From Tetmemena sp. SeJ-2015 (taxonomy: Eukaryota; Ciliophora; Spirotrichea; Sporadotrichida; Oxytrichidae), in NCBI GenBank assembly GCA_027382625.1, contig JAJKFJ010021784.1, positions 1 through 64,000 on the forward strand: DNA of 64,000 bases, written 5' to 3'. The first letter of the stretch is position 1, and every line of letters begins with the position of its first letter. Made by a program: the position numbers and the translations under genes. Positions 11,965 through 38,985 of the stretch are shown in pieces. The notes under the pieces were generated by a model, which saw only the letters and a program-made list of their open reading frames with translations, was not told the DNA's origin and did no database searches.

Positions 11965-12172
11965 AGCTGGAGTTAGGTGCGGAGGTGAGAGGGGAGGTAG
12001 AGTGAAGTGGAGTGAGAGCAGTGGAGAAGGTAACCCAAACTTCTAACCACCAATTAATTTGAATAATTTAAATATAAAAGCCTATTATTAACCTTTTAAA
12101 GGAAAAACCCCTACACTAAAGCCCAACCTTGAATTGATAAATATTAAAAAGGAAATTCAAATTCTCCAAAAA

Positions 12173-12274
12173 CGATGTAAATTGAAATCTCAAGACATCT
12201 ATGTTCCTGGATGCCCACCAACAGCAGAAGCTTTACTTTACGGTTTAATTCAATTACAGGGAAAGATTGGTTTT
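12173..12274 (+). pseudogene. nad10: Fragment of NADH dehydrogenase subunit 10 (NuoB/PSST)
   Basis: The frame gives [20 protein letters not shown] followed by LQGKIG. This is the signature of the NuoB/NDUFS7 iron-sulfur subunit of complex I, including the Cys of the PGCPP motif, a cluster N2 ligand. Only this C-terminal block is present; the CxxC and the rest of the protein are absent. In ciliates nad10 is mitochondrially encoded, so this is most simply mitochondrial DNA inserted into germline DNA. A fragment of a nuclear copy is the alternative. Confidence 0.75.
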
Positions 12275-12310
12275 CTTTTTTCAGATTAAACCTATTTGTA
12301 TCTAACCTAT

Positions 12311-14544: not shown

Positions 14545-15144
14545 AAAAATTTTGGGGGGGGGTTTTTGCTAAATTTTTTAATAAAAAAAGAAAAAAAATG
14601 TTTTTTAAAATAATTTTTCCTCCCCGAATCTATTCTTTTCCAATTATAGAGGCCTACGAACATCTAAAGGGCCCCAAATTTTAATCCTAATTCAAAATTT
14701 TTGAGGGAAAAAAAAGCCCTAAAATAAAATATTTTTAAAGCTTTTTTTCCTTTTTTTTAAAAATAATTTAAAGGCTATTTTGAAAAATGCAATATTTTTT
14801 TAAAAAAATAGCATGCTTCAGCTATAAGCCCAAAGAAGTAGAAACTAAAAATTGTACATTAGAATTTATCATTAAAAATTGTGGGTTTAAAAAAATATTT
14901 GCACTATTTAAAACTAGCGCTTTAAATTTTTTTTACAATAGCGAAAAAATGCTTAAAATATATGTTTTTTTTAGGGGGGGTTTTCCTCTAAAAATCTGAA
15001 TTAGGGTTAAAATTTACCCTTGATGTTTGAATAGGCCTTATAATTGGAAAAATCAGATTCAGGGCGAAAAATTATCCTATAAACATTTTTTTTCTTCTTT
15101 TTTCATTATAAAATTTTATGTCAGGAAAGGGCCCCCCCCCAAAT
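14545..15144. mobile_element. MITE copy B, about 600 bp
   Basis: It has the same architecture and internal landmarks as copy A. A left end AAAAAATTTT plus G run and a right end GTCAGGAAAGGG plus C run and AAAT enclose TTGCACTATTTAAAACTAGC near 14898, AGCGAAAAAATGCTT near 14940 and ATCAGATTCAGGGCGAAAA near 15052. The corresponding blocks of copy A are at 5295, 5338 and 5451. It is more diverged than copy A and its arms pair less well. No coding capacity. Confidence 0.75.
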
Positions 15145-15365
15145 AATTTTAAATTTTTCCTAAATTAAAAGTTAGTAAAAGGTTTAAAAATTATTTAAAG
15201 TATTTAAATGATTTTTCTATAAAATTTTGTAAAGATTTATAAGTTTATTGATAATATTGTAAATTAAAAAAATTATTGTTTTAATATTTGATATAATTAT
15301 AGTTTAAATAAAGAAACGAACTTTAAATGAGTAATGCAAAATAATTAATGGATTATATGATTGAA

Positions 15366-18300
15366 TAACTATGCCAAAGTGAAGGCAGATTTGACAATTA
15401 TGGCAGTAAACTCATTCTAAAAGGATTCGAACGATTTGACAAGTCCGATGATGCGAGCACTAGCAGTAAGAACAATGGGTTGCATTAGAGTTGAGAGAAT
15501 AACGGAGTATCTCTGTGAGTCTATTAAAGCTAAGCTAAATGATCCTGATCCTTATGTCAAAAAAACTGCCGCTATTGGAGTAGCTAAATTATTCCAAACA
15601 AGCCCCAGACTAGTCAAGGATCATTCCCTAATCAAAATCTTGCAGCAGATGCTTTACGACGGAAATGCAAATATATAAATTTAATGTTTATGAAGAATTG
15701 GCGCTTTAATTCTATATGTGACATATTCAATTTAGAGTATTACTGGGAAGATTAGTATGAGTTCTTTCTGATTAATTATGAGACATTCATTCAATTAGTC
15801 CTCTTTAAAGGAACTTACTTAAATTATTTCTCAACAAATAATTTTGACGATAAAAATTTGAGTTAATCAATCAAAAATTTTCTATTTTCATTAATTTATC
15901 ATTCTATCTTTAAGATTTAAGATTAAAACAGAATATACGAGTTTTAAGAACAATTTTGAAGAAGTAATTTTGATTGTCCTTATTTATTTTTTACTATAAT
16001 TATGCAGTTGTAGTTTCAAATGCTTGTGCTTCGTTGTTAGAAATCTCTAGGGGGTCAGGCAAGAACTACCTGCGCCTTAAGAACGACCAAGTGCTTAACA
16101 AGTTACTAATAGCACTGAATGATTCAAACGAGTGGGGAAAGATATACATTTTGGAGGGGATCTCCAGCTCCTACGACACTGACGACTCAAAGGAGTCAGA
16201 AAACATTATTGAGAGAGTGCTCCCCATGCTTACTCACAACAACGCAGCAGTCATCCTCTCAGCAGTCAAGACTGTCCTAAAGTTCATGAACAACGTTAGC
16301 ACTCAGGACATGCTTAAGGGTATCATCAAAAAGCTTAGCGCACCTCTAATCACTCTGCTCAGCACGGAAGCAGAGATTTAGTACGTAGCTTTGAGGAACA
16401 TAAACTTTAATAAATTACTTTATTCTCCAAAGATATGCAAACCTATTTGAGCAGAACGTGCGAGTGTTTTTCTGCAAGTATAATGACCCTGTCTACGTGA
16501 AACTAGAGAAGATCGACATACTGGTCAAAGTGGCTGATGAAAAAAACAGCGACCCCATTTTGGCTGAGCTGAAGGAATACTCAGGAGATATAGACACTGA
16601 GCTAGTGAAGAGATCAGTGAGAGCCATTGGGCAGATAATTCTGAAAGTGGATAAGGCTTCAAGCAAGGCAGTGGAAATAATTGGGGAGATCGTGAAGGAG
16701 AGGAGTGAAATAGGAGTGCAAGAGGCAGTCATAGTGGCTAAGGATATCTTCAGGAAGTTCCCTGACAAGTATGAGTCACTCATCAAGCAACTTGTGCTTA
16801 AGTTAGACGATTACAACGAACCAGACTCCAAGGCTTCAATAACTTATTAAAATAAAATAAGTGTTTTAATAAGATGGTAGCAGAAATAAGATCAAGTTCA
16901 AAGTCTTAATTAGTGAAAAACCAGATAGTTTGATATATTAAGATGTCAGATTGGTAAATATTTAATCTCTCTAATATAGTTGGTTGTTAAATATTGATTA
17001 GGCTTAAAATTAATTTACGAATACTTGCTTCTCTTTTAAAGATCTTGATTAACCAATGGGCTGGCTAAATTAATTAAATCTTATTTTACCACTAATCTTT
17101 AAATATTATAATCCCCAATTTTACCTTTAAAGCCAGAAAACTTTCTTCTCGGGCATCTTTTTATCTGTAATTTCATTTAGATTATTATTTCTATAACCAT
17201 CAAAACACTTATTTGATTTTATATAATCAATAATTTGGATAATTGGGGAGTACGCTGAGAAAATTAACGAGTCAGAAATTCTGATTGAGAGATTCTTGGA
17301 GTAATTTATTGAAGATCACGACAAAGTGAAGCTTGCGTTGCTAACTGCATCTGTAAAGCTGTACCTTAAGAAGCCCGACGAGGGAGAAGCAATTATTCAG
17401 AAAGTGTTGAAGCTGGCTACTGAGGAGGCAGACAATCCAGACTTGAGAGACAGAGCCTACATCTACTGGAGAATGTTGAGCACTTCTCCCCAAAAGACAA
17501 AGCAAGTTGTGTTAGGTGAGAAGCCCAACATCAACGAGGACTCCTACAATCAATATGATGACAGTTTAATTGGATCCCTGATAGAGCAGATATCCTCCTT
17601 GAGTAGCATTTATCACAAGACCCCTGAGGATTTGGCAATAATGCAGAGAAGAACTGCTCCTGGATAGCCAGTGAGGAAGGAGGAAGTGAAGAAGGAAGCA
17701 GATGCTGCTCCTGATAGCGAAGAAAGATCCAAGAGCCCTCCTAAGAAAGGCAAAGCTAAGGCCAAGGGAGAATCAGAGGATGAAGAAGATGCAAAGAAGA
17801 AAAAGAAGGCCAAAGAAGAGACAAAGTTAGAGAAACCTAGGGACAAAAAGAAAAAGAAGGAGTCAGACGTTTAGGTAACACAAGTAGCTCAGTAGTAGCC
17901 TGTGTCCCAAGGAATAGACATCGATGACTTGCTTGGGCTTGGAAGCTCTACTCCAGCCACAGCACCCCCTCAAACCAATAATCAAATCAATAATGGATTA
18001 GGTGGACTTGATTATTTTTAATTTAATTATATCTATATGATTTACATTGAAATATATATGTTTGTAATTGATTTCGGATATCCTAGTCAACCCTAAAACT
18101 AACAGGTATAGCAAACTGGATTCTCAAGCTAAGATTTGTTTGGTGGTTCTAACGACAATAAAAATAATTTAAATTAATTTATTTATTTTGATGTTGATAT
18201 TTGATGAATGAAGGTGATGGAGCAGGTTGGGCAAACATGGATATGTTTGGATAGTAAAACGTTCAGAAGGAGTTGACTTTAGATTTTGCGTATCCTCCTC

Positions 18301-19092
18301 TGAAGGAAGCACTTAACTCAAGTACTAAAGGATAGAAGGGAGGTTCTGGCGTCTAAGTGAAGGCAGTTTTCAGAAAACAAGACAACGTTAGTCTAGTAGT
18401 GGACCTCGAAATCACTAATCATCAGTCTAACTAGCCTATTTCAGAATTAGATCTTCTATTTATTTAATCTGATGTTCAACAAGAATCCATTTGGCATCGC
18501 TGTCTATAATGCTGGCCAAGCATTTGCCCAAAAAACACAAGCCATTCTACCTGGTCAAACTGTTAGCTACTCTCTTCCTTGTGTAATTGACAAGAAGAAC
18601 TTAGACCCTAAGAATCCACCCAAGAGTCCTTTCATGGTGGAGTCAGCTCTAAAGAGCAATGTGGATGTGTTCTACTTCACTATCCACTGCATGCTGCACT
18701 GTTTGATCGACCAGTCTCAGCCAATGTCCAGAGATGACTTTAAGAAATTCTGGGAGATGATCCCCAAGACCAACGAGACTACTCTGACAGTTGATTCTTT
18801 ATATGGAGCCTATACTTAGAAGGGAGATGTGCCTACTGCTCTTATTGACGGACTTAAGAAGAATGGATTTGAAAATCTTGCGAAGGTAAACAAAAACGAT
18901 ACTCAGCAGACTATGCTGTACTTCGGCGCCTTCACTATAAATAAACTCCCACTATTATTTATATTGCTTGAAATCGGCAGCCCATTCAATGGGAACGAGT
19001 AAAGTGTGCAGGTATTGTTTAAAATCCCAGTAGTTCCTCTAAAGCCTCTTCTCACAGAAGCCATAGATTATATTTTATCAAGAAGAGACTGA
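15366..19092 (+). CDS. AP complex beta-adaptin, N-terminus missing
   Basis: Large beta subunit of a clathrin adaptor complex, acting in vesicle coat assembly. It begins abruptly at [18 protein letters not shown], after an in-frame TGA, and continues with the hallmark [13 protein letters not shown], the HEAT-like trunk ([22 protein letters not shown]), a K/E-rich hinge near 17690-17870, and the ear domain ([24 protein letters not shown]). Stop TGA is at 19090-19092. About 95 N-terminal residues expected of the family (up to VYLYLMNYAK) are not found upstream in the window. Six IESs (pointers ATGCA, ACTTTA, TT, TAT, AAT, TT) interrupt it; excising them gives one continuous frame without indels. 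AP-1, AP-2 and AP-4 types were not separated. Confidence 0.92.
15670..16006. other. IES in adaptin, 337 bp, pointer ATGCA
   Basis: ATGCA at 15665-15669 and 16002-16006. Excision joins GGA AAT GCA to GTT GTA GTT, giving [16 protein letters not shown] in frame. Confidence 0.9.
16410..16422. other. IES in adaptin, 13 bp, pointer ACTTTA
   Basis: ACTTTA at 16404-16409 and 16417-16422. Excision gives [16 protein letters not shown], matching the family. The insert is too short for a normal intron and lacks GT-AG. Confidence 0.9.
16846..17236. other. IES in adaptin, 391 bp, pointer TT
   Basis: Excision joins ATA ACT T to TGG ATA ATT, restoring [12 protein letters not shown], the conserved IWIVGEYAERI block. 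The pointer is only 2 bp and could be placed one base differently. Confidence 0.85.
18016..18081. other. IES in adaptin hinge, 66 bp, pointer TAT
   Basis: TAT at 18013-18015 and 18079-18081. Excision gives GLGGLDYPSQPQNQQ. The insert is a multiple of 3 and has no stop requirement, so this one rests on composition and the repeat. Confidence 0.7.
18166..18209. other. IES in adaptin, 44 bp, pointer AAT
   Basis: AAT at 18163-18165 and 18207-18209. Excision restores the frame into [13 protein letters not shown]. Confidence 0.8.
18461..18476. other. IES in adaptin ear, 16 bp, pointer TT
   Basis: Removing 16 bp gives [14 protein letters not shown], which aligns without gaps to the family MTDFAIQFNKNSFG block. 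An alternative 4 bp ATTT deletion also restores frame but adds two residues. Confidence 0.75.
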
Positions 19093-19457
19093 TCTAGCTA
19101 CTTTTGCAGTTTATCCTAATTGGATTAATCAATTATTTGTGCTCAAAATTTTAAAGTAAAATTTTATAGGTAGGATATGCTGAAATATTTCTTTTGTGTT
19201 TAATAGAATAAAAGCAGTATTTAAACACTTATTTTTTTTAATTTTAGTTAGGTAAATATGAGTTTAAAATTTTGAGAATAATAAAATATATTTGATATAA
19301 GATTGTATTTTCTCTTATTGATTTAAAATATTTTGGCTAATTATATTGATGGGGAATAGTAAAATATTGAATAAATTGTATGTAATTAATTTGAATAGTA
19401 GAAAGAATGACTTATATTGAGGATTCTTAAGTTAATGTTGCAAATGTAAGGAATTGA

Positions 19458-20985
<1,528 letters not shown>

Positions 20986-21174
20986 TTAAGGCTTCTGTAT
21001 TATCACAAAGTCATCAAATGAGTCGACTTAATAAATGATATCTTTAAGAATATAATGATTGTATCTGTACAAAATATATACAAATGAGCTCAAAGTATAG
21101 CTTTAAAATTCATAACTTAAAAAAATTAATTGATAGTGAGTATGAGATCCTATATAATTATAGACACAATTGAA

Positions 21175-21983
21175 TCAATAATTGATTAATTTAATATTTT
21201 GGTCTGTTTCAAATAAATTATTCATAGAATAGTACAAAATTCCTGATACTGTTTTCATTATGATGCAATTTATTTGTCTCTATATTTCATGCAATTAAGC
21301 AAATGGGTGATTTTAAAGAACTTCTTGGAGGTCATCTTGAGCATCTAGAGGCTCTTAAACTATAGTACCTCCTGCGCTTGTTCTCTGTTCCTTTATTAAG
21401 TCCTCTTCCCACATTCTAAAATCATTGTTGGGCATTCTGTGAATTCTTCTAAGCTAGTCTTTCTCCGAAGTGATGAAGTCTTTTAAGGACTTGGTAGCTA
21501 CTCCGAAAATCTTGAGGTTCTTTTTAGTTTGTTCATGATATCGCTTTTTCAAAACGTAGATAAGATCCCTCCGACTAAAAGCAACATCAGACATCAGTTT
21601 CAAAGGATTTGATGCAAATAGGAAATAACTTACTGTTCACAAATGAGTTCTTCGTCTGCTCTAGTGGAGAAATGCAAGATGAAGTTATTGTTTCCTTGAA
21701 TTAAACTGCGAGTGAAGCCGATAAGTTCGTCGATTCTGTTCCTCCTCTTAATTCTCTTTCTCTTTTTGTCAATAAAGTAAATGGTCTGGTTTGTGATTAG
21801 CAGGATCTTAAGTTTCTTGAAAATAACCAACTTAGGCTTGAACACTTCGCTTGAGAAGCATACGAATTCTAAAGTAGTTGTTTATTTATATTGGTTTAAG
21901 TTACCATCCTTTTTGAAATAGCTTTTAATCTGCTGTTCATACTTCAAGTTCAAATAGTCTCTATCTCTGTCTTCCTTAGACAT
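21175..21983 (-). CDS. Myosin-TH1-like (TH1 domain) protein
   Basis: Starts at ATG 21983 (MSKEDRDRDYLNLKYEQQ). The central region KILLITNQTIYFIDKKRKRI, then KRRNRIDELIGFTRSL and NFILHF follows the TH1 pattern of class I myosin tails, a lipid-binding fold like a PH domain. No myosin motor is present. A 56 nt GT-AG intron (GTAAGTT...TTTTAG) splits CE-HRRDLIYVLKKRYHEQT. The C-terminal end NDFRMWEEDLIKEQ is clear. The tail beyond about 21340 to TGA 21175 is less certain and could include 3' UTR or an IES. It could target a kinase or actin factor to membranes; function is inferred only. Confidence 0.65.
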
Positions 21984-22184
21984 CTCATTCGGCAATTATC
22001 ATAAACAAATATAATAATTAAACAAAAGATATAACTATTGAATAAAGAATAGTCAACCATGTTCTCAAATCTAAATTTATAAATAATTCTCAAAATAAAA
22101 GATAGATTAGGCAATTGGAGTGGCTGCTCAATTGAAAGGCGTATAATATTTTATAAATCATTGATTATAATTCCAAAAAATAAA

Positions 22185-22630
22185 ATGTAGATGCCTATGA
22201 TGCCTCCTGGTGCTGGGTAAGTAATTCCTCTCTTCGTGAATAGACACTCTCACAGATAGATATCTTAATTTGAAAAGACAATCCCATTTGCTAAAAGTGA
22301 ATTATAGTGCTCCCAAGAAGAAGGCCGAGCCCGTGGTTCCCAAGCTTATCCAGAACGATAGAAACAATAAAATTTACTAATTCATAAATAAGGGCTACGC
22401 TCTCGTCTTCATGGTGACTTCCTTCGGAAGGAAACTACTTTGGTTCGGATCTTGCAGTAAGTTAATTCTTTGTGATAATAGTGACTTTAGTGGCTTTCAT
22501 GTTTATCTTGCCAATGGGATTCGAGATTTTCAGCGAGCAGTCTAAGATCTTGGCCAAAATTTAAATGCAGATGATGAACGACTCAATGATGGGAGGTATG
22601 GACGCGCAACCCACCATGAGGCCATTCTGA
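22185..22630 (+). CDS. TOM22-like small mitochondrial membrane protein
   Basis: A short protein starting MQMPMMPPGAGAPKKKAEPV, with one hydrophobic segment GSCMTLVAFMFILPMGFEIF near residues 60-80 and a Met/Gln-rich tail ending at TGA 22628-22630. The pattern of a charged face, one TM containing LP and a following E fits the outer-membrane import receptor Tom22, but the match is short. Two GT-AG introns lie at 22217-22307 (91 nt) and 22457-22481 (25 nt); both are needed for a continuous frame. Other single-pass tail-anchored proteins remain possible. Confidence 0.5.
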
Positions 22631-23176
22631 GAGGAAATAGTAAATAATCTCAATTGAAACGAATTAAACTATGCACTTATTCATATACTTCTTATACTTC
22701 TTAGTCTCTAAAGTTATTCATTCATCTTTTTGTCTCACATCCTATCAAATTATAGCCGTCCATGTCAATATTAATCAATTTGTTATACATTTGTATTTCT
22801 TACATTATTATAGAATATCAGAGATAACTTAAATTATTTAAATTCATAATTTCTGATTTATTATCAGAAATAAAAGATTGAAGAAATTTAAAAGTTAAAA
22901 TCTCCATCCCTCATTTAATGCTGATTGTAAAAATGATGATTATATATTTTAGAATATCTTTTCATGATATATTTTTATTATATAGGTGAGATGGCAAATC
23001 TAAATAGATAGCAATAAGAATCCACATATCTATTTAAAGGGTAATTAGATAGTAAATTAATAAATTAGATATTGCATTATTAATTTACTTTTCTGATAAT
23101 TAAATTATTTAATTTCTTAATAAATAAAATTATTGCATTGAATAAAATATTTGCAATATTAGATTGCTTTTACTAG
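22631..23176. other. Intergenic, AT-rich, nothing recognised
   Basis: About 550 bp between two plus-strand genes. It presumably holds the HPPD promoter. No motif could be assigned. Confidence 0.5.
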
Positions 23177-24587
<1,411 letters not shown>

Positions 24588-24606
24588 GAAGCGATATCTC
24601 TAATAC

Positions 24607-24872
24607 AATCAAACCTAATAACAATTATTTTGGGCTAAAAAAGTTATAAAAAATTTGAATGTATTTTTTGGATTAAGTATAATGACGTATCTTCGGGCCT
24701 TGAATGAGTTTCGTCTTATCAAGGATCTATCAGCTTCAATCTTTCATATTAAAAGCTCAAAAATCAGTATATATTTTAAGTAAATTTTAACTTAATCTCA
24801 TCTTTTCTTTCACAATTTCGCCTTTTTTGAAATGAGTAGTTTGATTTTTGACTAAACTTTTCTTATCCATTA
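24607..24872 (-). CDS. Small hypothetical protein
   Basis: Minus-strand ATG near 24872 gives MDKKSLVKNQTTHFKKGEIV followed by KEKMRL. After a frame break of about 50 bp, probably an IES or intron near 24760, a basic segment DKTKLIQGPKIRHYTQS is readable. The 3' end is near 24607, about 20 bp from the HPPD stop, so the two genes converge. No family recognised. Confidence 0.35.
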
Positions 24873-25243
24873 TAGAAATGATTTTACATAATTTTGAATT
24901 AACAAATTTAATAAAGAAATAAAATAATTTAGTTATCTTATAGTCATATTATAAATAAAAAATAATAAAGATTATCTAATAATGATAAATTATTTTATGT
25001 GTTACTTTTTTCTTGATATTTTCTTGTTAAAATTTTAAAGAAGAGTGATTTCCTTATAAGATAGTTAATAGTTTAAACCATAATTTTAAATTTTTGATTT
25101 TCTTATAAGTTATTTTATAAAAATTAATATAAAATAATTGCAATAATTTATAAAGCTTACACTTTTTATGGGCATTATATTTTATTTTGAAATAGATATT
25201 TATTAATCTAATTATTGGAGAATCGAAGTATTAAAGAGCCTAA

Positions 25244-25447
25244 ATGGCCTTGCTTGCTCGATCACTCTTTCTCTCCTTGTAAGATTGTTAAGCTATAATG
25301 ACCTTCATATTTATAATGTAAACTCTATCAACTAACTAATTTAAAATATTTAGGACAAGTTTAAAGAACCTAGGAGGTTTGTTTTGTAGTATATTAGCTA
25401 GTTGTAGATTTACCTCTAAACTCAGATAATGGGCTATGAACCTTTGA
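25244..25447 (+). CDS. Short protein with one intron, possible mitochondrial presequence
   Basis: ATG 25244 gives MALLARSLFLSL, then a GT-AG intron at 25279-25353 (75 nt, with an ACTAACT branch-like site), then TSLKNLGGLFCSILASCRF and TSKLRQWAMNL ending at TGA 25445-25447. The 43-residue product is hydrophobic, with Arg/Ser in the N-terminal part and no acidic residues. This resembles organelle-targeted or membrane microproteins. It rests on one ATG, one intron and composition only. Confidence 0.35.
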
Positions 25448-26083
25448 ATCATGAACTCACTCTATTAAATATCCATGTCGAAATATTATATTCAAATTAC
25501 AAATACCATGTGATTTAGCGAATTTCTTCATACTTTAGAATTATTTAATTTTTATAGACCTAAAATCTTAATAGTAAATAAAATTAATTATTTGTCAATC
25601 AGTTAAATCTTGAAAATATAATTCTTAAAATTAAACTTTATTTACGAGACAAAAAAGGAAATATACAAGATTAAAAACAATAGGCATAAATTATTTAATA
25701 AATCATAAATTTATCATAAAATCCATAATTCTAAGAAGATTTATCATTTAAATTTTAATTAAAATTGTTTTTACTTTCTTGCATAGCACTTTAAAATGTT
25801 TTTATTTTTGATATTTAAAGATTTGTTATTTAATTTATTTGATAAGCTCAAAATTAGTTAAAGTTTTCCATTGTATTTTGAATTAATTGATTATAAATGC
25901 GTTATTTTTTTAATTAATGTGTGTTTGAGTTAAGTAATGCCTGAGGAATATATAAAGAATTAAATGTATTAAAGGAAAGAGCATGAAATACGTCATTCTC
26001 TATTTTGATTCATAGTTTATACTGATAAAAATTTATCAAATTTTAAATATCATTTCTCACAACAACTTAACCAAATTTAAATA
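25448..26083. other. AT-rich intergenic region, nothing recognised
   Basis: Very AT-rich upstream flank of RPN2 with no coding or repeat signal found. Confidence 0.5.
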
Positions 26084-29000
26084 ATGTCAGCATTCGACTC
26101 AGGCAGACAGGTATCTGCTGCAGCTTCCCTTGCCATGATCCAAGACTCAGAGAAAGACATTCAAGTCTATGGGCTACAGAAACTAGATCAAATTGTTCAC
26201 TACGCCTGGCATGAAATCTCAGACCACGTCTCAAGAATGTAAGTATCACACTCTACTGCTCACTAATTAATTGGTTAATCCTCCCATTACCACTTTCTTA
26301 ACTTGCTTATAGTGAATCGTTCTTCGATGATGCCAGTTTCCCTCAGAGAGAACTTGCAGCTTCAATTGCTTCCAAAGTGTTCTACTACCTAGAGGAGTAC
26401 GAAGAGTCTCTCCGTCTTGCACTTGAAGCAGGCCACAGATTCAACATCGATGAGGGCAACCAATACACTGAGACCCTTTTGCACAAGTGCATCGACAACT
26501 ACATCTAAAAGAGATAGCAAGCTTTCGAGCAAGGAGCGGATGCTCAGCCCATTCATATTGACAAGAAGATGGAGAACGTTGTCAATAGAATGCTTGAGAG
26601 GTGCGTCCAAGATAACCAAACTCATTCTTTCTTTAACTAATCAGGCTATTGGAATCGCCCTAGAAGCTAGAAGGATGGACGTCATTCAAGCAGCCATTGA
26701 GAAGGCATCTGATGTGGAGGAGAAATTAGCTTACACCTTCACTATCGCCTAAAACATAGTCAAGAACAAGGCATTTAGAAGTGAAATCCTAAAGCTACTT
26801 CTCTTATTAAACACGCGTTTTAACATGTCCACAAATTATATATAGTTATTGATTAGAATAATCTACGAGAAGAAGCAGGGTGGTAGATTTGACTACTACA
26901 AAATCGTGAAGTGCTAGTTCTTCTTGAGTATTCCCGAGTCAACATCAATTTATTAACTCAATCTTTAATTTTGTTGGGAAGAATCGCAAAGAGTGATGAC
27001 TACTTGGTTGCTTACCAAATCGCTTTCGATATCATTGATAACGAGAATCAACAGTTCAAAAAGAAAGTTCAAGAAAGCCTTGCTCTCCAAGAAGCTTCTG
27101 AGAGCTTGAACGAAAACGAGAAGAACAGACTCAAGCAACTTTAAAACATCTTGACTGGCGAAGTGAGGGACAGACTCACTCTCCAGTTCTTGAAGAAGAA
27201 CAACCACACTGACATGCTCCTTCTCCAGAAGATAAAAGAAAAGATTGGAGAGAGGAATTCAATCACCCACGGATCCTGCATCTGGGCAAATGGTATCATG
27301 AATGCTTTCACCACTAACGACTCTTTCTTGAGAGATAATCTCTCCTGGGCTGCAAAGGCAACCAACTGGAACAGATTCAACGCCACTGCTACCCTTGGAA
27401 TGATCCATATGGGCAACAAGAAGGAAGCCATGGCTATCTTGAATCCTTACTTCACTGGAGCAGCAGGCCCTGAGGGACAAGCTTCTCCTTTCTCAACTGC
27501 TGGAGCTTACTATGCTTACGGACTCATCCACGCAAATCAATACAACCAAGAGGTGTATCAATACCTTAAAGACGGCTACACCAATAGTGGGCAGAATGAA
27601 GCCATTCAGCATGGAATCAGTTTGGGAATCGGTCTCACAGCCATGGCCACTAATAATGATTAAGTTTATCAAGAGTTGAGAGACGTTCTCTTCAACAACG
27701 CAGACTCAGCCATTATAGTTTGAGTTAATGGCATTACTAAATTTTGTGTTTCATTAGTTTAGTAAAGTTATGCATAAATTATTAATAAAATTTTTAATAT
27801 CAGACAATAAAACCATGAATTAAGTAAAGTGAAATTGTTGGATTTTAAGCTGATATTTAAAATAGCTATAAATACAAGATAAATGAGTCTTTCTCAAAGG
27901 CCAAGGTACGCAGTATTTTAGCTCCTCTTAGAGCATATTTTGAAGATAGAACTGATATTCAATGTATTCGCTGTCCCAATTGTACATGAGTTCTCACTAT
28001 CTCTTCTCGATGAACTTGAGATAGCATAAGGGCTCTCTCATGTGAGGTCAAGCAACTTGTTGCATGTCTCTTCCTCTGCTTTTCTCTCTGAGATATTGTC
28101 AAATGACTGTGAATGCTGTTTATTTACTCCCCAACACTGTGGTCTCTGTCAGTAAGCTCCATGCTCGACTTCCATTCTTAATTTCTAAATTAATTATTAA
28201 AGAGAGTATCTTAATTATGCTTATTTATTTTGGCTTAAAATTAATTAAGAATAAGCAATAAGTAATTAAGTTTAGACTAAGTGTATTTAAGATAAATAGC
28301 TCATGATTTCTTTATAAATGAATCAGCTCCTAACTACATTAAGACGTTTTTCTTAAAAGTGAATTAATTTTTAAGTAATCTTAATTAATTTCAACCCTAA
28401 GACTATTAATGTAATTAAGTTATTCTGATTTATTATCATTTTAGTAAATAAACATGAAAGACAATAGTGGAGCAGACTGAGAATAACATCATTATTGGGG
28501 AAAGAAAAACAGCGAATTCTAAGTCAAATGGCAACCGCAATGAGAGAAAAGTAGATCAGAAGAATGTAGAATGTTCAAGGAGATTTCAGAGCTCTTCAGC
28601 TATACTATCTCGACTGTTCTGCAAAATGATAGCAAGAATTCCTTCGAAAATTGAAGATCAAACTCCATAAATATGACTTGAACTTGCAAAGAATGTGAAG
28701 TTGAGAGCCAAACCATAGTCTCATAAGAGCTTTGATGAAGTACTATTTCTCTTGTATTTAGAAAATAATTGTTTATCTGCTTAAAATTCAGAAATTCGTC
28801 TTTATGGTGCTTATAGTAATGATATATTCTTTTGAATTGAATTATTGAGTATAAAAAAAGAATAATCAAGTTCCAATCTCGAGATCAGGCTAAATTAAAC
28901 AACTCAAGCATTATAAATAGTATTTCAAGAGCAAGATTAGAGATTAGGAATTAGAGTGATTTATATTAATTCTGTTTTTACTATTTAATACTGATATATT

Positions 29001-30683
29001 CTTATTAAATACTCTTTAGAATTTTGTAAAGGATTGCAAATCTATAATTTTCAATATCAAATAATCACACAAAGTCAAAGTTTTACCTCAATTTCTAATG
29101 GCATGAACTTCTTTGTAGAAGCTGTACTTTATATAAATACAAATTTAGCATATTTGATCAAATTAATTTTATTCCTTCTGAAGTCTTAATTTAATTATAA
29201 TTTGATTCTTATAATCAATTGATTTCTTAAGTTAATTTAAATTATATTGGTGAGGCAGCAGCTTACTCTATGGGTCTTGTTATGCTAGGCTCTGCTAATG
29301 AGGAAGCTGTTTAAGAGATGCTGACTCACGCTGCTGATAGCAAGCATGAGAAAATCATTAGAGCACTGGCAATTTCTCTTGCCTTGATAATGTATGGAAA
29401 GGAGGAAAACGCAGACACTCTCATTGAACAAATGGTCAGAAGTAAGGACTCATTCATGAGATATGGAGCTATGTTCGCTATTGGATGTGCTTATGCAGGT
29501 ACTAACAATAACAAAGCAGTTAAGAAGCTCCTTCACTATGCAGTCTCAGATGTGAGTGATGATGTTAAGAGAGCTGCTCTCATGAACCTTGGATTCTTAT
29601 TGTTCCGCAAAGTACGAGAGAATCCCTGAGCTCGTGAAGCAACTTGCTGAGTCCTACAATCCTCATCTTAGATACGGAGCAGCATTTGCTGTTGGAATTG
29701 GTTGTGCAGGAACTGGATTACATGAGGCCATTAAGCTGCTTGCTCCATTAACAAATGATAACGTTGATTTCGTACGTCAAGGAGCTATGATCGCTCTATC
29801 TATGGTGTTCATGCAAATCACTGAAGCTCAAGAGCCTAAGGTAGCAACTATCAAAAAGCTATTGACTAAGACTGTGGAAGATAAGCATGAGGATATCTTA
29901 ACTAGAATGGGTGCTATTCTCTCCTAGGGTATTATAAACTCTGCTGGAAGAAATGCAACTATCTCCTTAACTACTAAGGATGGAAGTGTGAGATAAAATG
30001 CAGTGGTGGGTCTAGTGATGTTTATGTAGCACTGGTACTGGTATCCTCTGCTTAACTTCTTCTCCCTCTCTCTTACTCCAACTGCCTTGATTGGAGTTAG
30101 TGAGAACCTGAAGGTGCCTAAGTCATTCTCCTTTGTATCAAATGCTAAGCCCTCTACATTTAAATACCCTGACTTCTTAAAGAAGGATGAAGGCAAAGAG
30201 CTGAAAAAGGTAGAGACCGCAGTTCTCTCTACAACCGCAAAGGTAAAGGCAAGAGTTTCAAGAAAGAAGCAAAATGAAGGTGGTGCAACAGAATAACCAG
30301 CAGCTGAAACTACTGCAAAGCCTGATGAGGAAATGCTTACTGAGGAAGAGAAAAAGAAGAAAGAGGAAGAGGAGAAGGAAAAGCAAATTGCTGCACAACC
30401 AGAGCCCGATTCTCAGAACTTAAAGAACCCCTCAAGAGTGCTAAGAGCTTAGGAGAAGAAGATCCTTTATCAGCTGGCTGAGACAACTAGGTGGTACCCT
30501 GTACTTGAGGAGAGATTCAGTGGGTTCGTAGTCCTTAAAGATCTTTCTCCAGAGAGCTAAGAACAAGAACTGTACTACGATGACGAGGAGAGAGACCCAG
30601 ATGCTCCTAATCCTGACAAGATTAATGAAATAGATCTACCAGCTGAGTTTGAGTTTGACCCTGCCATCCAAAATGCTCAGTGA
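26084..30683 (+). CDS. RPN2: 26S proteasome regulatory subunit RPN2 (PSMD1)
   Basis: Largest non-ATPase subunit of the proteasome base. Start MSAFDSGRQVSAAASLAMIQ, stop TGA 30681-30683. The N-terminal helical region is followed by PC repeats (GMIHMGNKKEAMAILNPY, AYYAYGLIHAN, SMGLVMLGSANEEAVQ, LRYGAAFAVGIGCAGTG), then a K/E-rich insert near 30190-30400 and the C-terminal block TRWYPVLEERFSGFVVLKDL. Introns are at 26239-26312 and 26601-26644. Three IESs interrupt it, including one of 1,534 bp in the toroid. One base too many in AAA at 29609-29611 breaks LLFRKYERIPELVKQ, the only indel seen. It lies tail to tail with the channel gene, 134 bp between stops. Confidence 0.96.
26809..26850. other. 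IES in RPN2, 42 bp, pointer TTATT
   Basis: TTATT at 26804-26808 and 26846-26850. Excision gives ILKLLLLIRIIYEKKQGGRF. Confidence 0.85.
26952..26971. other. IES in RPN2, 20 bp, pointer AATTT
   Basis: AATTT at 26947-26951 and 26967-26971. Excision gives IPESTSILLGRIAKSDDYLV in frame. Confidence 0.93.
27870..28190 (-). CDS. ORF inside the RPN2 IES, unknown
   Basis: Reading right to left: MELTDRDHSVGEQINSIHSH, LTISQREKQRKRHATSCL, HERALMLSQVHREEIVRTH, then a one-base shift into MYNWDSEYIEYQFYLQNMLQ and EELKYCVPWPLRKTH. The composition is strongly protein-like with no low-complexity bias. No family recognised. Start and end are uncertain. A competing plus-strand frame starts at about 27883 but reads less naturally. 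Confidence 0.4.
28450..28740 (+). CDS. Second ORF inside the RPN2 IES, unknown
   Basis: A plus-strand frame near 28467 begins MEQTENNIIIGERKTANSKS. A shifted frame gives KEISELFSYTISTVLQNDSK and later CKECEVESQTIVS, broken by TGAs. It may be a decayed gene. No family recognised. Confidence 0.25.
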
Positions 30684-30816
30684 AATATAAAAGTATGAGG
30701 TGTATTAATGCTGTACATTTAAGTTTATTAAATCTGTTCTCAATATAAATATAAATCATGATCAAAAGGAACAAAATGTAACTGTGAAAAGAAAATGATA
30801 ATGCGACAGTATACTG

Positions 30817-33800
30817 TCACATCTTAGTGTTATTTCTGTTAGGAGCAGGAGCGTTGGAGGCCCCATTCTTCTGGTTAAGGAAGTAATTAAATAATAGTTA
30901 GTACTGCTCGTTCCTCTCTATCTTGAGTTTGACTAGCTCTAGGATATCCTTGACGTCGTTGAGGTTAGTGCGCTGGTTCATGAGCTTGTCCTTGACGTTC
31001 TGGACTCTCTCTCTGTTCTTGTCGTCGAAGTACTCGAAGGCGTTAACGATATCCAAGTTTTGGTAGGCGATAAGTGATTCCTGGAAGATGCGGAAATTAA
31101 ACATCTCAGTCTGATCAAGAGAGGTCTCAAGGATCTTGTTTGGAAGTGCCTTCAACATCAGCATTCACTTAATCTATAGAATAAAATTAAATTGTTAGAG
31201 AATTACATTTTGAATTATATCGAGATGCTCGTTCATGGAAGACTCAGAGACTATGGTGAATTTAGTGAGGAAATCGTCTACAATCTAGACATCTCTGTCG
31301 CTGATCTCGAAGTCACTCATGTCTACTATTTCCTCTAGCTAGTGGTTGACCGCGTTTCTTTTGAGTCTGTCCAAGAACACTACCTTAAGCTGGTTGGTAA
31401 GGTCTTTGGGTTTGTTTGGGTTCACTTTTAAAACAAATGACGAACTTTAGGAGCTGCTTATGAAGCTCTGTTATCTCCCCAAATGGAGCTCTTGTCCTAA
31501 CTTTGATTACTCTTGTTGGACTTCAAGTGGGCTGAGCTATTCTGCTGCTAGAGCTGCTTCTTGAACTTAAGAGCCATAACGCTTCCCAGGATCTGTGGAT
31601 TGGCTCCTACATTGTTCTTAGCAGCTATCCTGTTCCTTCTCTCAGTGAGTGTCTTGCGCTTCTTCCATTCATCTATGATGAGGGACTTTTTTACCACATA
31701 GAGGAAGTCTTCATTCATGTTCTCGTCGTCTGTAACTCTGAAGAAATCTATGTCTTCGTATTCTGCTTCATCGTCATCATCGTCTGGCTCTTCCTGGTTC
31801 ATGTGCTTCTGCAATCTCTTGTATAGCGATATGACAGTCAGCCTGGTCTCGTTAAATATAAGTTATATATTTGCATCTTCTGACTAGAGTCAACAGGGTC
31901 TTCTCCCAACTCATCCACTTTGCCAGCCTTGCAGCCTTCGTGGTGGCCCAGGATGTTCATGAGGTAGCCTACATCTTTCATCATCAGATACAGCATCATG
32001 AAGATTCCTATTAAAAGCCAGATCGTACAGTTAACGATTGTAAATTATAGTCTATAAGGCTAAAGCAATTTTAATGTAATATGTTGTTTATTGAGGACAC
32101 CCATGGAATTCTTGATTAGATTTATCCAGACCTTTGCATATGCGATAGGAGAAATGCACAACTCAAATACAAGGAAGGCCCCAATGAACAGAATATTTTC
32201 AATCCAGAACATCAGGTAAGAGAACCATTATAAAATAAAGAAATGCCATTTGCTGACATGCTGCATAGCCTTTCTACTAACAAGGAAAGGAGCCATAGCG
32301 ATACTGAGGTAACTGAGTGGAGGTGGGTGTAGTACAATTTCTCCATAACTTGGTTCAGCGAAGGCAGTCATGAATCGTTCACAGTACTGATAGAGGTTGA
32401 CTTTGTATCTGAAGATACCAGATTGCTTCATGTTCTCGTAGGTGGTGGAGAGAATGGCGATGAGGTAGTTCATGAGAATGATGTTTGCGAAGAAGACGTG
32501 GGAGATGAGGAGAATAGAGTAAGAGAGAACTCTTCCCTCCATGTTGTCGTAGTCGTACTAGCCAATAGTTGCATCGAAAAGAGTTCTGACTGTGAGAGCC
32601 AGTCCTCCAAACTTAACAGGGTTGGTGTCTTGATAGAGAGTGGTGAAGATGGAAGCCATAATAAGAATGAAACAACTCACAATGAACATGAAACTGAGAG
32701 TGTCACCAACCATAGCCATTAGTGTAAGAAGTAGCTTTGAAATGGATCTCACCACCAAAAAGTAAGCGAAGAAACGCAACCAAGATATGCACAACACGAA
32801 TATCATGAAATAGTCGATATAGTCCTTGGACTTTGTAAGATAAATGTCAGCAGGCACTCTCTGAATCACTTAAACAGCGACTATATTCAAAACTGCACTC
32901 AAGCTGTCCATGACTGTCCACTTGTCAAATCCGATCTTGTACTTTGAGCAAATGTTGAAAAGGATCTTAAGAGCTAGCTAGAAAAGGAGTGCAGCAGAGA
33001 AGAAAAGGGCGAAGAAGTTCCAGTTAACATAAGTCCTAATACTGGATATGATGTTGTTGATAAACTACTTAATTAGATGAGAGCATAATGATAATAAACT
33101 GTTGAGTTTAGTAGACTGTTCTGTTCCATCTCCATTTTTAATAGTGTTGTTGGAGAATAAGATGAGATACTAGTAGTTGATGTACTGGAATATCACAAGC
33201 ATAGCAAGAGCGCAAAAGAACTCCTTGTAGAAGTAGAAACTTATAGCCTTTGATCTATATCTGTACTAGAAACTGTAATCGAAATATAATAAAATTCAAT
33301 CGACCTTGAAGTTAGGAGTCTAACCCCAAATTTTTATATCAGAGCGGGAGATTAAAAAATAACGAGTGGTGAATAAATACTGAATAAGCTTAATAATTTA
33401 AATGCAATTAAGTACTCATTTATATGATTTAATTTTAATTATAGCCTCTCTTTAATTGCAAGAACGTGATTACGGATAAGATAACTTAATTTTTTCACTC
33501 AATTATAAAATTTTTAAATAAAATTTTAAGAAGTAATTTAAGAATTTATTAAATAATAATTATCTGCAGATTTATCCCACTTAGTTTTGAGTGTAGTAGT
33601 TAGTTATCATTTGAACGAGAGATTGATTCCTTCCTGATATTTTCTTAGCTCTTGTCATAATGATATGAGAGAGATTAGAGTAACCAAAGATGTTTCCATC
33701 GCATTTAGTTGCTTCTTTGCCATGCCATATCATCACCATCAAATTAATTATAGTAGAAGAACACTAATCAATAAATTTTCTGCTTTGGGGTCTTCTTCGT

Positions 33801-36203
33801 CCATAAGTGGTTCGAAAGTGTTTTAAGTAATGGTCTTGAGGACTGTTCTTCCCTTAAAGTCCACTCCCATGATTAGGCTTTCATAGTACTTCTCGTCTTC
33901 AATCTTCCTAGAGTACATCTTTCCTAACTCCAACAGTTGATTTTGGATCTTGTTACATTCATTTTCGAACTTCCTCCTAGAGTTGGCTACTTTATTGAGG
34001 ATCTCTGCTGCTAAGGCTATACTCATGAGTGGATTAGGGGAGAGCAGAAGTCTATTCTTGTCGTAGTTCTCTTCAACGTAATCGTTAATGATCTCTACCA
34101 GTTCCTTCAAGTGTTTATTTTTCCAGACAGATATGTCAATCAAGATGACGATATTAAGGAGGAAGTTGGTTCTGTAGCCCTAGCTCAGTATATCTAGGAT
34201 CTGGGAGATGACTGAGTCTTCTCTGAAAATCATCTTGTCAAAGGCAGCTAAGATCAGAGCCTTCTGCAAGAAGAAAGTATTTCCATGAGTCATGCAGTGA
34301 ATGAAGAGGTCTTTATCCAGGAAGTGAGAGTAGTAACCCATGTATTCAATTGCTAACTCATCAAAATGATGGATGAGAAGGGCTTGAAGGATGTTGTCTA
34401 AGGAAATAATCTTCCAGTCTAGCACGCATTTTATCATTTCTACTATCTTTTCTTTAGAGTTAGGTTTGCCTTGGTAGGTCTTTTGAATTAAGTCTAGTAA
34501 CTGGGAGTAGGTGATGAAGTGAGCGTCTTTCTTATTCTTATGGCCGATGTAGTTCTTTTCAAACGCCCACACAAATTAAAGCCATTCGTAATTCTCCTTG
34601 TTAAGTGCTCTTATATGATTCATAATTTAATGGAGCTAGATAAATGAGCTATAATAATATGTGATGCACATAAACAATAACTCATTTCTATAATAGCATT
34701 TTCAAAAGGAATTTAAAATGTTTCTTTTCATTTGAAAAATATGTTCTCCTTAACAAAGTTCCAAGAATCCAAAATTATTTTCTTGCTTCAAATTTACTTA
34801 ATTTAGAAAGCTCAGATTTATTATTTGTTGAGATTAGTAACTAAAATATTTAAGATTTTGCTTTTTCAAATTTCTATGTTTATTTTTATAAAGGAAATTA
34901 TTAAATAAACTTTGAAATTTTTTGTGGAGCAAGTTTTTCATTAATTAATTGGTATAATCATCTCTTCCTCGAGAGAGACTTCGTAGTAGGCAGTAATAAT
35001 GCAAGCAATCTTCTCTTCGTCTCTTTGAAGAGCCATTTTGAGCACATTGGACATCAGATTCACAAACTTGCCTCTAAAGATGGTCTTAACCTTGAGTAAC
35101 TCAGTGATATCCTTTAGTCTGGTATTGTTAATTACTTCTTCGGTGATTCCAATCATCTCCATTGCTTGAGCATTCTTAAGATGCTCTTCTTGACGTCGGC
35201 GCTCCTCGTCTTCAGCCTTTATTCTTCTAGCCTCGTTAAGTACTTAGGCTAGAGATGGAGGAGGCTAATGAGATTGATTTTGCCTAGGAGAAGGGGCGTT
35301 ATCAGTCTAGGGGTTGAGGAAGTCGTCTTCTTCTCCCTCATCTGGCCCGTTGTTGCGAGCTCTTTGGGGTTAGTTGGAATTAGCATTTGAATCTGGTTCG
35401 TCGTCTTCACTGAGGAACTCCTTGTCATCATCTTCCTCAGAGCCTCCTTCGTGCTAGTACCTATCATCTTGAGCTTCCGAAGGTGCTCCCTCTTTATCTC
35501 TTTGCTTTTCTTCCTCTGAGAGGTTTTCACTTTGGAAGGACTCGTTGGAGCCTCTGCCGCTGTTGTTTCCTTGCCACTCCTCTCCGTCCTCATCTTCATC
35601 CTCAGATTCCTCTCCTTCTCCTTATAAGTTACATACAATAAAATGAATCCTTTTTTGTTGATAATTGCGCAAGCGACTAGCTATTTAAGGATTTTATCAG
35701 ACTCAAGCAGTGTCTAGGCCATTCTCAAGTCCTCTAAGTGAAGTGCAAACCAAAACGCAAAAGTTAAGTCATGCTCGTAACTTTTAGGCCCCTCTTGCCT
35801 TCGGATGGTTTGCAATTCATCCAGCACAGCTTCCACATTTCGATTGAAAACTAAAATGCAATTACTATATATGTAAGTAACTGCCTAGTAGAGGGGCGTG
35901 TGGATGTCTGTCAGTCTTAGCCTATTTTAAATGGTTATTCAAAGTTAGGAAAATAAATAGCATTATCATCATCTTAAGTTATAAGAATATTTATGAAGAG
36001 CTGGCTACTCAAACCTAAGCATCAAAATATTTATCCCACCAAAGTTTAAGAGGTTAAACTAAATCTGAAACTTACATGGCATCTACTCTTTTTTGAGAAG
36101 TGAGAGTTTTAAGAATAGGGTGCTCCTCCAAGTGGGCTTTGGTCTTTCGTCCAGAGGGTGGGGGAGCTTGTTAGTTTTATAGTTTAGCCAATATACTACC
36201 CAT
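30817..36203 (-). CDS. TRP/polycystin-like cation channel
   Basis: Starts at ATG 36203 (MGSILAKLQNQQ), stop TGA 30819-30817. Order: ankyrin-like N-terminal region (TDIHTPLYQAVFNRNVEAVL, FAFWFALHLEDLRMAQTLLE), a long acidic linker (35270-35620), helical repeats with LNDILQ/ALLIHHFDELAIEY character, then an ion-transport core. S1-S6 include NWNFFALFFSAALLF, YFMIFVLCISWLRFFAYFLV, a pore-like FGGLALTVRTLFDATIG and S6 ANIILMNYLIAILSTTYENM. An acidic C-terminal tail holds DDDDDEAEYEDIDFF. A 154 nt intron lies at 35922-36075. At least three IESs are resolved; a further unresolved insert lies near 33290-33590. It could be ciliary or plasma membrane. The subtype is not resolved. Confidence 0.85.
34621..34946. 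other. IES in channel gene, 326 bp, pointer AAT
   Basis: Excision joins EEEMIIPIN to HIRALNKENYEWLQFVW. The repeat is ATT on the plus strand at 34618-34620 and 34944-34946. Confidence 0.8.
35624..35652. other. IES in channel gene, 29 bp, pointer AAGG
   Basis: CCTT (plus strand) at 35620-35623 and 35649-35652. Excision gives ACAIINKKGEGEESEDEDED in frame. Confidence 0.85.
35853..35882. other. IES in channel gene, 30 bp, pointer AGTT
   Basis: AACT (plus strand) at 35849-35852 and 35879-35882. Excision gives HTPLYQAVFNRNVEAVLDEL, an ankyrin-like repeat. Confidence 0.8.
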
Positions 36204-36356
36204 ATTATTTAATTTTAAGAACAATCGCACCCCAGAATCCAAAAATAGTTTCCATCTCTCTCTAAAAATATGCAATTTCATTCCACCCACCATACACTTC
36301 TCCAAAGTCAAAATCACTTGCAATTTTAAGAAATATATAAGTTAAAATCAAAAGTA

Positions 36357-38985
36357 ATGGAGAGCAGCAAGGATCACAACACTCAATAATTAAATGGAAG
36401 TGAGAAGAATCACTGGACTGAACAAAGAATAAAAGAACTAAATGACCACTCCAAATGGACTTACTACAACGAAGGCAACAACAATATTATACTATGATAC
36501 ACAGGCAAGGATTCTTGGCTGGCTGCTAAAATTCTCAGAATCAGAAAAAACAATAATCAAGAGTACTATAATGATCCCACACTCTTCCCTCTTGACGAGT
36601 ACAACAATATAACCTACCAAATTATTAAATACAGAGAGAGATTAATTTTTAAGTACAAACATATAAAGTAGTAAAAAAGGTTATTTTTATTTTTCATATA
36701 AGTATTTCGATTCTCTAAATTTGAACTTTAAAAAAAACTGAGTCTAATACACTCTTAACTAAATGAGTAAAGGCCTGAGAAAAATTTATTTGCAGTTTTA
36801 ATCGCTAATATTATTTGAAAGCATTAAAGCTCTTCTAAGAGCTATTTCTTTTTTCTATTTTTTTTATCTATTTAATTTTCTTTATTGAGGTGAGTTTTAT
36901 TTTATGAGTTATGATGATTCTTAGATTTAAATTTACTAGTTTGAGAATGATTGTTATTGTTATTCTCAGCCGTTTAAAGCGTGCTTCAATAAGCTATTTT
37001 TTCTATCATTAATTTTTAGTCTAAATAAAAATGTATTTTAAACTACAATTACTACTCCAAAAATTAAAAAATCAACATCACTCCCTTCAAAATATCGATC
37101 AAATATTTTAAATATGGATAATATCTATAATATTTTTGATTGATTTCTAAAAGAAAACTTTAAATTTTCCATTATCACTTCGTAAATTTCAAAGTGTCTT
37201 TAAGTGTTGAAAAAATATAAGTTTACTTTATTATAATTTGTTTAATCTGATTACTTAATTGATTTTGCTTAGAATTATTATATTTTGCTTATGCGTATGT
37301 GTGTTTGAATCTGTTTATCAACAAAGTTTTTATGACTCACCCCATTCTTAGCAAGTAAATTATAAATATGAAAGCTAATAATACTTAATTTACAAAATAA
37401 TTTATCTGCAGCAGTTTGAATACGTCAAGCTTTCTAATGAGTTTTTGGAAGCAATAGAAACCCAACTTTAATATCAAAGAACCAATCAATCTGAATAAAA
37501 TATTAATTATAAATTAAATAAATTGATAAAATTTAAGTTTAAGTAACTCATATAAGAAAAGCTCACTTTAAGTAAACTAGATGATACTAGATCTAGTTGT
37601 TAAAATTTAAAATACTGCTTAAGTGCTGATATAAATTTTCTATTTAGTTGGATAAATCATTCTTGCTTACTTAAAAAAAAAGTTAAAGCTTGATAGTATT
37701 TATATCGCAAAAATAAACTCCTCCCTTTTTTTAATTTAAGCCGACAGTTAAAGTTTAACAAATATTATCTTTATTTGGTGTTTTATGTTGGCAATAAATA
37801 TTTTTATAATTTGTTAATTTAGTTTATTTGAATAAAAGATTCATTTATTTTTCACAACAGCTCAAGCACTATAGATTTGTGCACTCCATCAGCCATGCTA
37901 GCCACAAACTATTCCTCCTAGTTTGAATCTTCTGAGGATCATCATACTCATAAAATACTAACATTCGAGGTTAAACCAAAATCAGGAGTAATAGAATATG
38001 TGCCAACTTCAGTTTAAATAAAAATGTATAGTTTTAAAAGATGCCTAAGACTTAGAAGAGAATACAATCTTCAGAAAAAATTAAGAATTATTTGAGCCTT
38101 TCATTTCAAACTGCTTCTCAAAATACCATGTAATGCAAGTTCTATTTATTATTTTAGTGAGCAGACTTTATAAAGGCAAGTTGAAGAGTCTTTCAAAATA
38201 CTCCCCTATTAGAATTCTTCAGCGATGAGAGTCTTGAGAAATCTTTGAGAGACTTAATTAATGATCACCAAATATATGGGAGAGTATTCATAAACGGAGA
38301 AGAATAGTTTGATCTTGATGACTACTCAATCAGATGATTTCTCATTTCTTATTGCAGTCTAAATTAAGAGAAGCGATTTTAGAATTGCAAAACTTCTCGC
38401 TACATTCAATGGAATATGTGACTGGCTGCTATAACTTAGTTGCTCCAAGATTGACGGATGAAAATTAAAGAACTCATCAGTTTGACATAATCAGGAGTAT
38501 TTTTGAGAACTTTGACTTTGATAAAACAAGAGAGCTATCTAATAAGTCGTTAAGCCAAGACGAATTAAATAGCTTAGAAGATTTGTAAATTGTTGATGAT
38601 TTAATTTATTTATGAGGAACTGCTACGGAATGTGTGGACGACTATTATAATTTATTATTAATTATAGGCTACTTGATCTCAGCTACAGTTAAGGATTTCA
38701 ATAAGCAAATATAATTGTACTTTCTTACTTGATTTCACAGTGATAATGAGAATAGTAGAAGACTTAAAAGGTTTGGAGAATATATAATCTTGTGGGCTTA
38801 GTAATGAGTAAATAATGGAATTCAAAGGCACTCTTTAAATTGATTATATTTTTCTTTACCGGGTGAGAATTGGTGTGATAGACCTGGAAGGCAAAATGTA
38901 CACCAAGTTACCTGTTTACTTAAGAGAAGCTGAAGAAGCTTATCTAAACTTTGTCAAGTAAACTTTAATACGAATAGCAAGTTGA
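36357..38985 (+). CDS. IPPK: Inositol-pentakisphosphate 2-kinase
   Basis: Makes InsP6 from InsP5. Family blocks appear in order: WTYYNEGNNNIIL-x-YTG and KILRIRKNN (N-lobe, EGxxN and RIRK motifs), ILTFEVKPKSGVIEYVP (EIKPK motif), LLEFFSDESLEKSL then RVFINGEEQFDLDD, GYLISATVKDFN (the ATAKDCS-like motif), and IGVIDLEGKMYTKLPVYL (the VDLDxKP motif). Start ATG 36357, likely stop TGA 38983-38985. An in-frame TGA sits at 36495 inside the N-lobe, and frame breaks near 38210 and 38340 suggest indels or unresolved IESs. Divergent from the channel gene, 153 bp between start codons. Confidence 0.8.

Follow-up and report, generated by a model that had tools for sequence, protein, structure and literature searches.

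The DNA analyzed here, referred to as the window, comprises bases 1–64000 of contig C2852 in an assembly of 146.2 Mb and 5213 contigs, in which contigs of up to 470 kb occur among those viewed. Four of its genes, encoding beta-adaptin, an AGC-type kinase, HPPD and RPN2, were chosen for their clear homologs, and their coding sequences are interrupted by 17 curated inserts (adaptin holds six, the kinase three, and HPPD and RPN2 four each), each flanked by a short direct repeat, the pointer. Judged from the assembly sequence alone, the inserts are almost certainly internal eliminated sequences (IESs), and the window is germline (micronuclear) DNA from a spirotrich, probably a hypotrich. In addition, four GT–AG introns of 35–74 bp coexist with the inserts in HPPD and RPN2. 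The features of the four genes are as follows, with pointer sequences written in coding orientation.

15665–16001, plus strand: adaptin IES, pointer ATGCA, second copy at 16002
16404–16416, plus strand: adaptin IES of 13 bp, pointer ACTTTA, second copy at 16417
16836–17226, plus strand: adaptin IES of 391 bp, pointer TCAATAA, second copy at 17227; a repeat resembling a miniature inverted-repeat transposable element (MITE) at 16848–17223
18008–18067, plus strand: adaptin IES, pointer TTGATT, second copy at 18068
18166–18206, plus strand: adaptin IES, pointer AAT, second copy at 18207
18451–18466, plus strand: adaptin IES, pointer ATCT, second copy at 18467
19942–20014, minus strand: kinase IES of 73 bp, pointer TTT, plus-strand copies at 19939–19941 and 20012–20014
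20182–20301, minus strand: kinase IES of 120 bp, pointer TAGATT, copies at 20182–20187 and 20302–20307; removal restores FAVDWWTFG
20368–20381, minus strand: kinase IES of 14 bp, pointer TTCT, copies at 20368–20371 and 20382–20385; removal restores the protein
23207–23273, plus strand: HPPD GT–AG intron 1
23324–23343, plus strand: HPPD IES of 20 bp, pointer AAAT, second copy at 23344
23408–23454, plus strand: HPPD GT–AG intron 2
23499–23528, plus strand: HPPD IES of 30 bp, pointer GAAT, second copy at 23529
23539–23573, plus strand: HPPD GT–AG intron 3, 35 bp
23832–23881, plus strand: HPPD IES of 50 bp, pointer AAT, second copy at 23882
24405–24420, plus strand: HPPD IES of 16 bp, pointer ATGA, second copy at 24421
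26239–26312, plus strand: RPN2 GT–AG intron
26619–26634, plus strand: RPN2 IES of 16 bp, pointer AACT, second copy at 26635
26804–26845, plus strand: RPN2 IES of 42 bp, pointer TTATT, second copy at 26846
26947–26966, plus strand: RPN2 IES of 20 bp, pointer AATTT, second copy at 26967
27714–29244, plus strand: RPN2 IES of 1531 bp, pointer TAT, second copy at 29245; an inverted-repeat element at 27825–28804 and a 160-bp repeat at 28832–28991

The inserts measure 13–1531 bp (median 41 bp) and are AT-rich, with a GC content of 0.24 as compared with 0.41 in their 60-bp flanks. None of them ends in GT–AG, whichever equivalent placement is chosen, and the length of 13 is not a multiple of three. A direct repeat of 3–7 bp (mean 4.5) lies at both edges of every insert, and cutting out the insert together with one repeat copy brings back the reading frame and the conserved protein in all 17 cases, where the protein match was judged by eye wherever the aligner was imprecise. 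The pointers are diverse and AT-rich, with 16 distinct sequences among the 17, and 11 carry an ANT motif. Since 12 pointers lack TA, which is present in the other five, and none contains TTAA, excision restricted to TA or to TTAA is excluded; a TA at every boundary, as in Paramecium, is likewise not what is found. A first-pass annotation of the window had already described AT-rich inserts without GT–AG ends whose removal with one repeat restores conserved protein, and had ruled out TA-only and TTAA-only excision, all of which holds for the curated set. Against its count of more than 20 inserts, which includes putative ones in channel, Q/S-rich and carboxypeptidase genes lacking close homologs, 17 are verified here, and its repeat length of 2–6 bp becomes 3–7 bp. 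Eleven of its 19 listed pointers recur in our set, whereas AAGG, AGTT, ATTA, ATTC, ATATG, TTA, ATT and TT were not confirmed.

The excess of repeats at the junctions also emerges from insert placement that takes no account of them. HPPD, RPN2 and adaptin were searched with a spliced aligner that placed inserts freely and gave no weight to GT–AG ends or repeats; the kinase inserts come from curation outside this run. The aligner placed 22 inserts, comprising three GT–AG introns, six inserts with lengths that are multiples of three and 13 that belong to neither class. For each insert, the longest repeat among near-equivalent placements was compared with that obtained from shuffled inserts, and the junction repeats of the 13 proved longer than those of the shuffled inserts (Fisher p = 3.3e-6). 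By comparison, the repeats at the three introns measure 0, 1 and 2 bp. The 13 include a 65-bp HPPD insert that merges an IES with an intron, a 10-bp RPN2 insert that is more likely a one-base frameshift and a 107-bp adaptin insert in a poorly aligned stretch, none of which is clean. Two of the six multiple-of-three inserts overlap curated IESs (pointers TTATT and TTGATT), and the other four (27, 33, 18 and 18 bp) look like ordinary protein length variation. At random junctions within 30 bp of the curated sites, repeats of at least 3 bp occur in 7.0% and of at least 4 bp in 2.6%, a comparison that is biased in favor of the inserts because the 17 were curated.

Restored HPPD comprises 381 residues and aligns over its full length without gaps to P0001 (84%), which we take from its database number to be the Oxytricha trifallax protein, and to P0002 from Stylonychia lemnae (85%), while P0001 and P0002 are 86% identical to each other. 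The distance of this HPPD from Oxytricha and Stylonychia is about equal to their mutual distance. At TAA and TAG codons, the aligned homolog residue is glutamine in 6 of 8 positions of HPPD and 13 of 34 of RPN2; the corresponding values at CAA and CAG codons are 20 of 22 and 49 of 99. TGA serves as a stop, with HPPD ending in TGA and restored RPN2 containing none in frame; a few kinase matches run across a TGA. The C4A4 repeat, the only telomere type searched, has 67 matches in the assembly as an exact 20-mer, nine of which form the first 20 bases of a contig, and the control for this search is uninformative, the pattern being identical when read backwards. Furthermore, DDE_3 transposase domains are abundant, with at least 150 matches (150 of 921 candidates scored). 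Taken together, these features indicate a spirotrich, probably a hypotrich.

A second copy of part of the window is found in contig C514 (16.6 kb), which is co-linear with positions 15366–25289 at 97.6% identity. All 13 IESs in the covered stretch are kept there with equal length and both pointers. A further site is filled in C514 and empty in the window:

18909–18914, plus strand: GACTAT empty site, where C514 has a 28-bp insert between two GACTAT copies

The 28 extra bases break the frame in C514; once they are taken out with one GACTAT copy, C514 and the window are identical at all 81 bases compared. Here the window reading is close to homolog P0125, matching it up to TMLYF. Having one IES both filled and empty within a single assembly fixes its boundaries exactly and would make IES turnover testable. 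The difference may be allelic, or somatic sequence may have been built into the window contig; both would support excision, and only the former would amount to IES turnover. The IES sets of the two copies differ in the 28-bp insert, present only in C514, and in probable inserts of ~0.2 and ~1.8 kb, which lie in poor sequence and are present only in the window; whether the copies are alleles of one strain between which IESs are still being gained or lost is, in our judgment, an even call. If so, filled and empty sites would segregate together, and somatic development would have to cut the two alleles differently. Searches for further copies found adaptin and HPPD only in C2852 and C514, with no insert-free copy in the assembly, and a search for a partner of positions 26800–36400 returned repeats only. 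Together with the glutamine-coding TAA and TAG, the introns beside pointer-flanked inserts, the gapless HPPD, the C4A4 repeats and the DDE_3 domains, the filled site in C514 supports the earlier assignment to germline ciliate DNA. These observations also show that IESs can be recognized in this assembly without a somatic genome, through homology and a second copy alone.

Several observations weigh against this interpretation. Taken singly, most junctions are weak, with p-values of 0.0075 to 0.40 for the 13 aligner-placed inserts. A one-base frameshift in RPN2, near 29603, has no pointer to account for it; omitting one A gives a frame free of TGA to the end, and the shift is probably an assembly error at a site that no second copy spans. 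PiggyBac-type genes were not found in an assembly search run without a positive control, and for that reason the negative result is silent on which transposase is involved. Four other co-linear contig pairs of 4 kb each (4 of 19 groups), a weak sample, provided one 73-bp and one 12-bp indel. The former, between C5148 and C3321 near position 631, is AT-rich with a repeat of only 2 bp and of uncertain coding status, and the latter has no repeat and lies in a poorly aligned spot; the remaining two pairs show no indel of 8 bp or more. Finally, instead of an allelic difference, the filled and empty forms at 18909 could mean that the window contig includes somatic sequence.

This last explanation, in which polishing or a chimeric assembly brought IES-free somatic sequence into the window contig, competes only with the claim of polymorphism and leaves the identification of IESs untouched. 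The nine contigs that begin with exactly 20 bases of C4A4 repeat suggest that somatic molecules are present in the assembly, and in such cells somatic DNA greatly outweighs germline DNA, according to passages of Feng et al. (PMC9797194). The six neighboring adaptin IESs are nevertheless retained in the window, and we regard a somatic origin of the empty site as possible but rather unlikely. It is more doubtful still that C514 and this part of the window arose by a recent segmental duplication and are not alleles. Their divergence is patchy, with 4 substitutions in 15366–20365 against 73 in 24616–25289, as duplicates might show; however, only two full copies each of adaptin and HPPD were found in the assembly, and three genes are co-linear over ~10 kb at 97.6% identity. 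As a separate observation, the patchiness across 15366–25289 perhaps results from gene conversion or assembly mixing, and at 25290–25604 the window has ~255 bp of noncoding DNA more than C514, between two aligned blocks.

Two readings that deny excision from DNA altogether fare far worse. Spliceosomal introns with unusual ends, removed from RNA, would likewise be AT-rich and interrupt coding frames, and genuine GT–AG introns occur in the same genes, but the absence of GT–AG in any equivalent placement, the length of only 13–20 bp of several inserts and the direct repeats at every insert, as opposed to the 0–2 bp at aligner-found introns, make this explanation extremely improbable. Equally hard to sustain is the view that the genes are decaying pseudogenes or the inserts sequencing or assembly errors, for which the poor sequence at 13060–15365 and ~11640–12170 and the RPN2 frameshift could be cited, since the 13 covered IESs recur in C514, the coding pieces between inserts are open and conserved throughout, and the inserts are systematically AT-rich and repeat-flanked.

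The first-pass annotation had set its left boundary at 15366, which is not a gene start. The adaptin 5' end sits further left in poorly assembled sequence, where the following features are found.

13208–13340, plus strand: deletion-ridden 5' coding piece of adaptin (N-terminus), aligned to the intact N-terminus in C514
13341–13538, plus strand: probable insert of ~0.2 kb in poor sequence, without counterpart in C514
13539–13571, plus strand: degraded copy of a 41-bp adaptin coding piece
13572–15365, plus strand: probable insert of ~1.8 kb in poor sequence, without counterpart in C514, with a ~600-bp repeat at ~14550–15140

The N-terminus is uninterrupted in C514. The score of the 13539–13571 piece was reached by none of 300 block shuffles, none of 55 other window blocks and none of 500 query shuffles; an earlier, laxer scoring fell short of significance, at 45 where shuffles reached up to 49.5. 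AACTA occurs at the outer edges of the two probable inserts, and the pointers of the ~1.8-kb insert allow no confident reading. This insert is unlikely to be mere noise because its ~600-bp repeat is dispersed, recurring in at least 39 other places (40 scored). Runs of five or more equal bases number 33–38 per kb in 13060–15366, 12–15 in 11640–13060 and 36700–38000, and 3–5 in 15366–20000, and owing to this richness in long homopolymer runs the block 13060–15365 is probably a weak consensus. Relative to C514, many single bases are missing from 11640–12170 and 13060–15365, both probably weak consensus, and findings there need care. A scrambled adaptin 5' end was considered when the N-terminus first seemed missing and was rejected, the pieces lying in order at ~13208–13340 and 13539–13571.

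Among the other genes, the nearest solved relatives of the kinase are SGK1 and RSK, to which the match stops at THSF, the start of the 14-bp insert. The window also contains an Ion_trans/PKD_channel domain, and Pfam assigned a kinase to one of four further reading frames and no family to the other three. Elsewhere in the assembly, bases 1–20 are exactly CCCCAAAACCCCAAAACCCC in C298, C586, C672, C739, C770, C1030, C1301, C4311 and C4966. Four telomere-capped contigs were read in part as somatic controls, and comparison of C298 and C586 with other contigs gave no clean somatic/germline pair; other contigs run past the capped starts of both, as if a telomere had been added there. C298 itself, although telomere-capped, has an IES-like 39-bp in-frame stretch between CATGA repeats at ~2550–2730 in a hydrolase-like gene, as judged by eye against the length usual in the family. 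In addition, positions 29965–36471 of C1815 form a 6.5-kb insert that is absent from C298 at 2352, has C4A4 repeats at its start and an ATT/ATTA repeat at the site, and is a candidate TBE-like element with its empty site.

Dispersed repeats lie inside two of the 17 inserts and inside the probable 1.8-kb adaptin insert. The 391-bp adaptin IES harbors an element of 376 bp that has TA at its ends as well as inverted termini in all 7 copies aligned; this element occurs in at least 38 other places (40 scored) at 75–86% identity. With TCAATAA falling a few bases beyond it, the element and the IES are not one and the same. A ~980-bp inverted-repeat element and a 160-bp repeat, both dispersed among the matches listed, sit within the 1531-bp RPN2 IES. 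Some IESs may have begun as transposon or MITE insertions whose edges drifted later, and change at pointers can leave IES boundaries that no longer match transposon ends, as parts of Feng et al. (PMC9797194) describe.

As the new somatic nucleus forms, the IESs would be cut from the DNA between pointers, with one pointer copy kept and the frame restored, and the GT–AG introns would be removed later, from RNA. From published work on Oxytricha and its relatives, we infer that this excision takes place at the DNA level during sexual development and that TBE/Tc1-type transposases may perform the cutting. RNA guides IES excision in Oxytricha and relatives. With only 3–7 bp and little uniformity, the pointers cannot by themselves specify where to cut, so guidance by RNA from the old somatic nucleus appears likely here as well.

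The phenomenon is well known in this ciliate group and textbook matter for specialists; what the window adds is one insert both present and absent in the same assembly. The TA-bounded IESs of Paramecium and Euplotes vannus, as described in sections of a published comparison (PMC10901763), resemble the present ones in being inserts inside genes with short repeats. They differ from the present inserts, most of whose pointers (12 of 17) lack TA. Blepharisma uses TGA as a sense codon, whereas TGA is a stop here. The MITE-bearing IESs reported for Blepharisma in the portions of PMC9942856 cited here are matched by the MITE-like repeat inside the adaptin IES; however, the repeat ends are not the IES ends here, with TCAATAA a few bases outside.

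Closer likenesses are found among spirotrichs. Halteria grandinella and Strombidium cf. sulcatum, in the parts of Lyu et al. 2024 (PMC10901763) drawn on here, share diverse, AT-rich pointers of less than 10 bp, and the ANT motif occurs in 42–51% of pointers there as compared with 11 of 17 here. The same passages give a median IES length of 104 bp for Halteria and of 73 bp for Oxytricha, against 41 bp in our small sample, a somatic GC content of ~51% in Strombidium, and partial germline assemblies of 225 and 135 Mb for Halteria and Strombidium, obtained from amplified single cells. For Oxytricha trifallax and Tetmemena, germline assembly sizes of 496 and 237 Mb, respectively, are given (excerpts of PMC9797194), by comparison with 146 Mb here. 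In contrast to those two species, no scrambling is seen in the gene parts read, which do not include the kinase 5' part, and the present HPPD differs by ~15% from those of Stylonychia and Oxytricha. The nonscrambled IESs of Oxytricha trifallax and Tetmemena, as far as the passages of Feng et al. 2022 (PMC9797194) used here describe them, nonetheless resemble those of the window in being pointer-flanked inserts in coding DNA, in the use of ciliate code 6 for both species, and in holding transposons whose ends no longer equal the IES boundaries.

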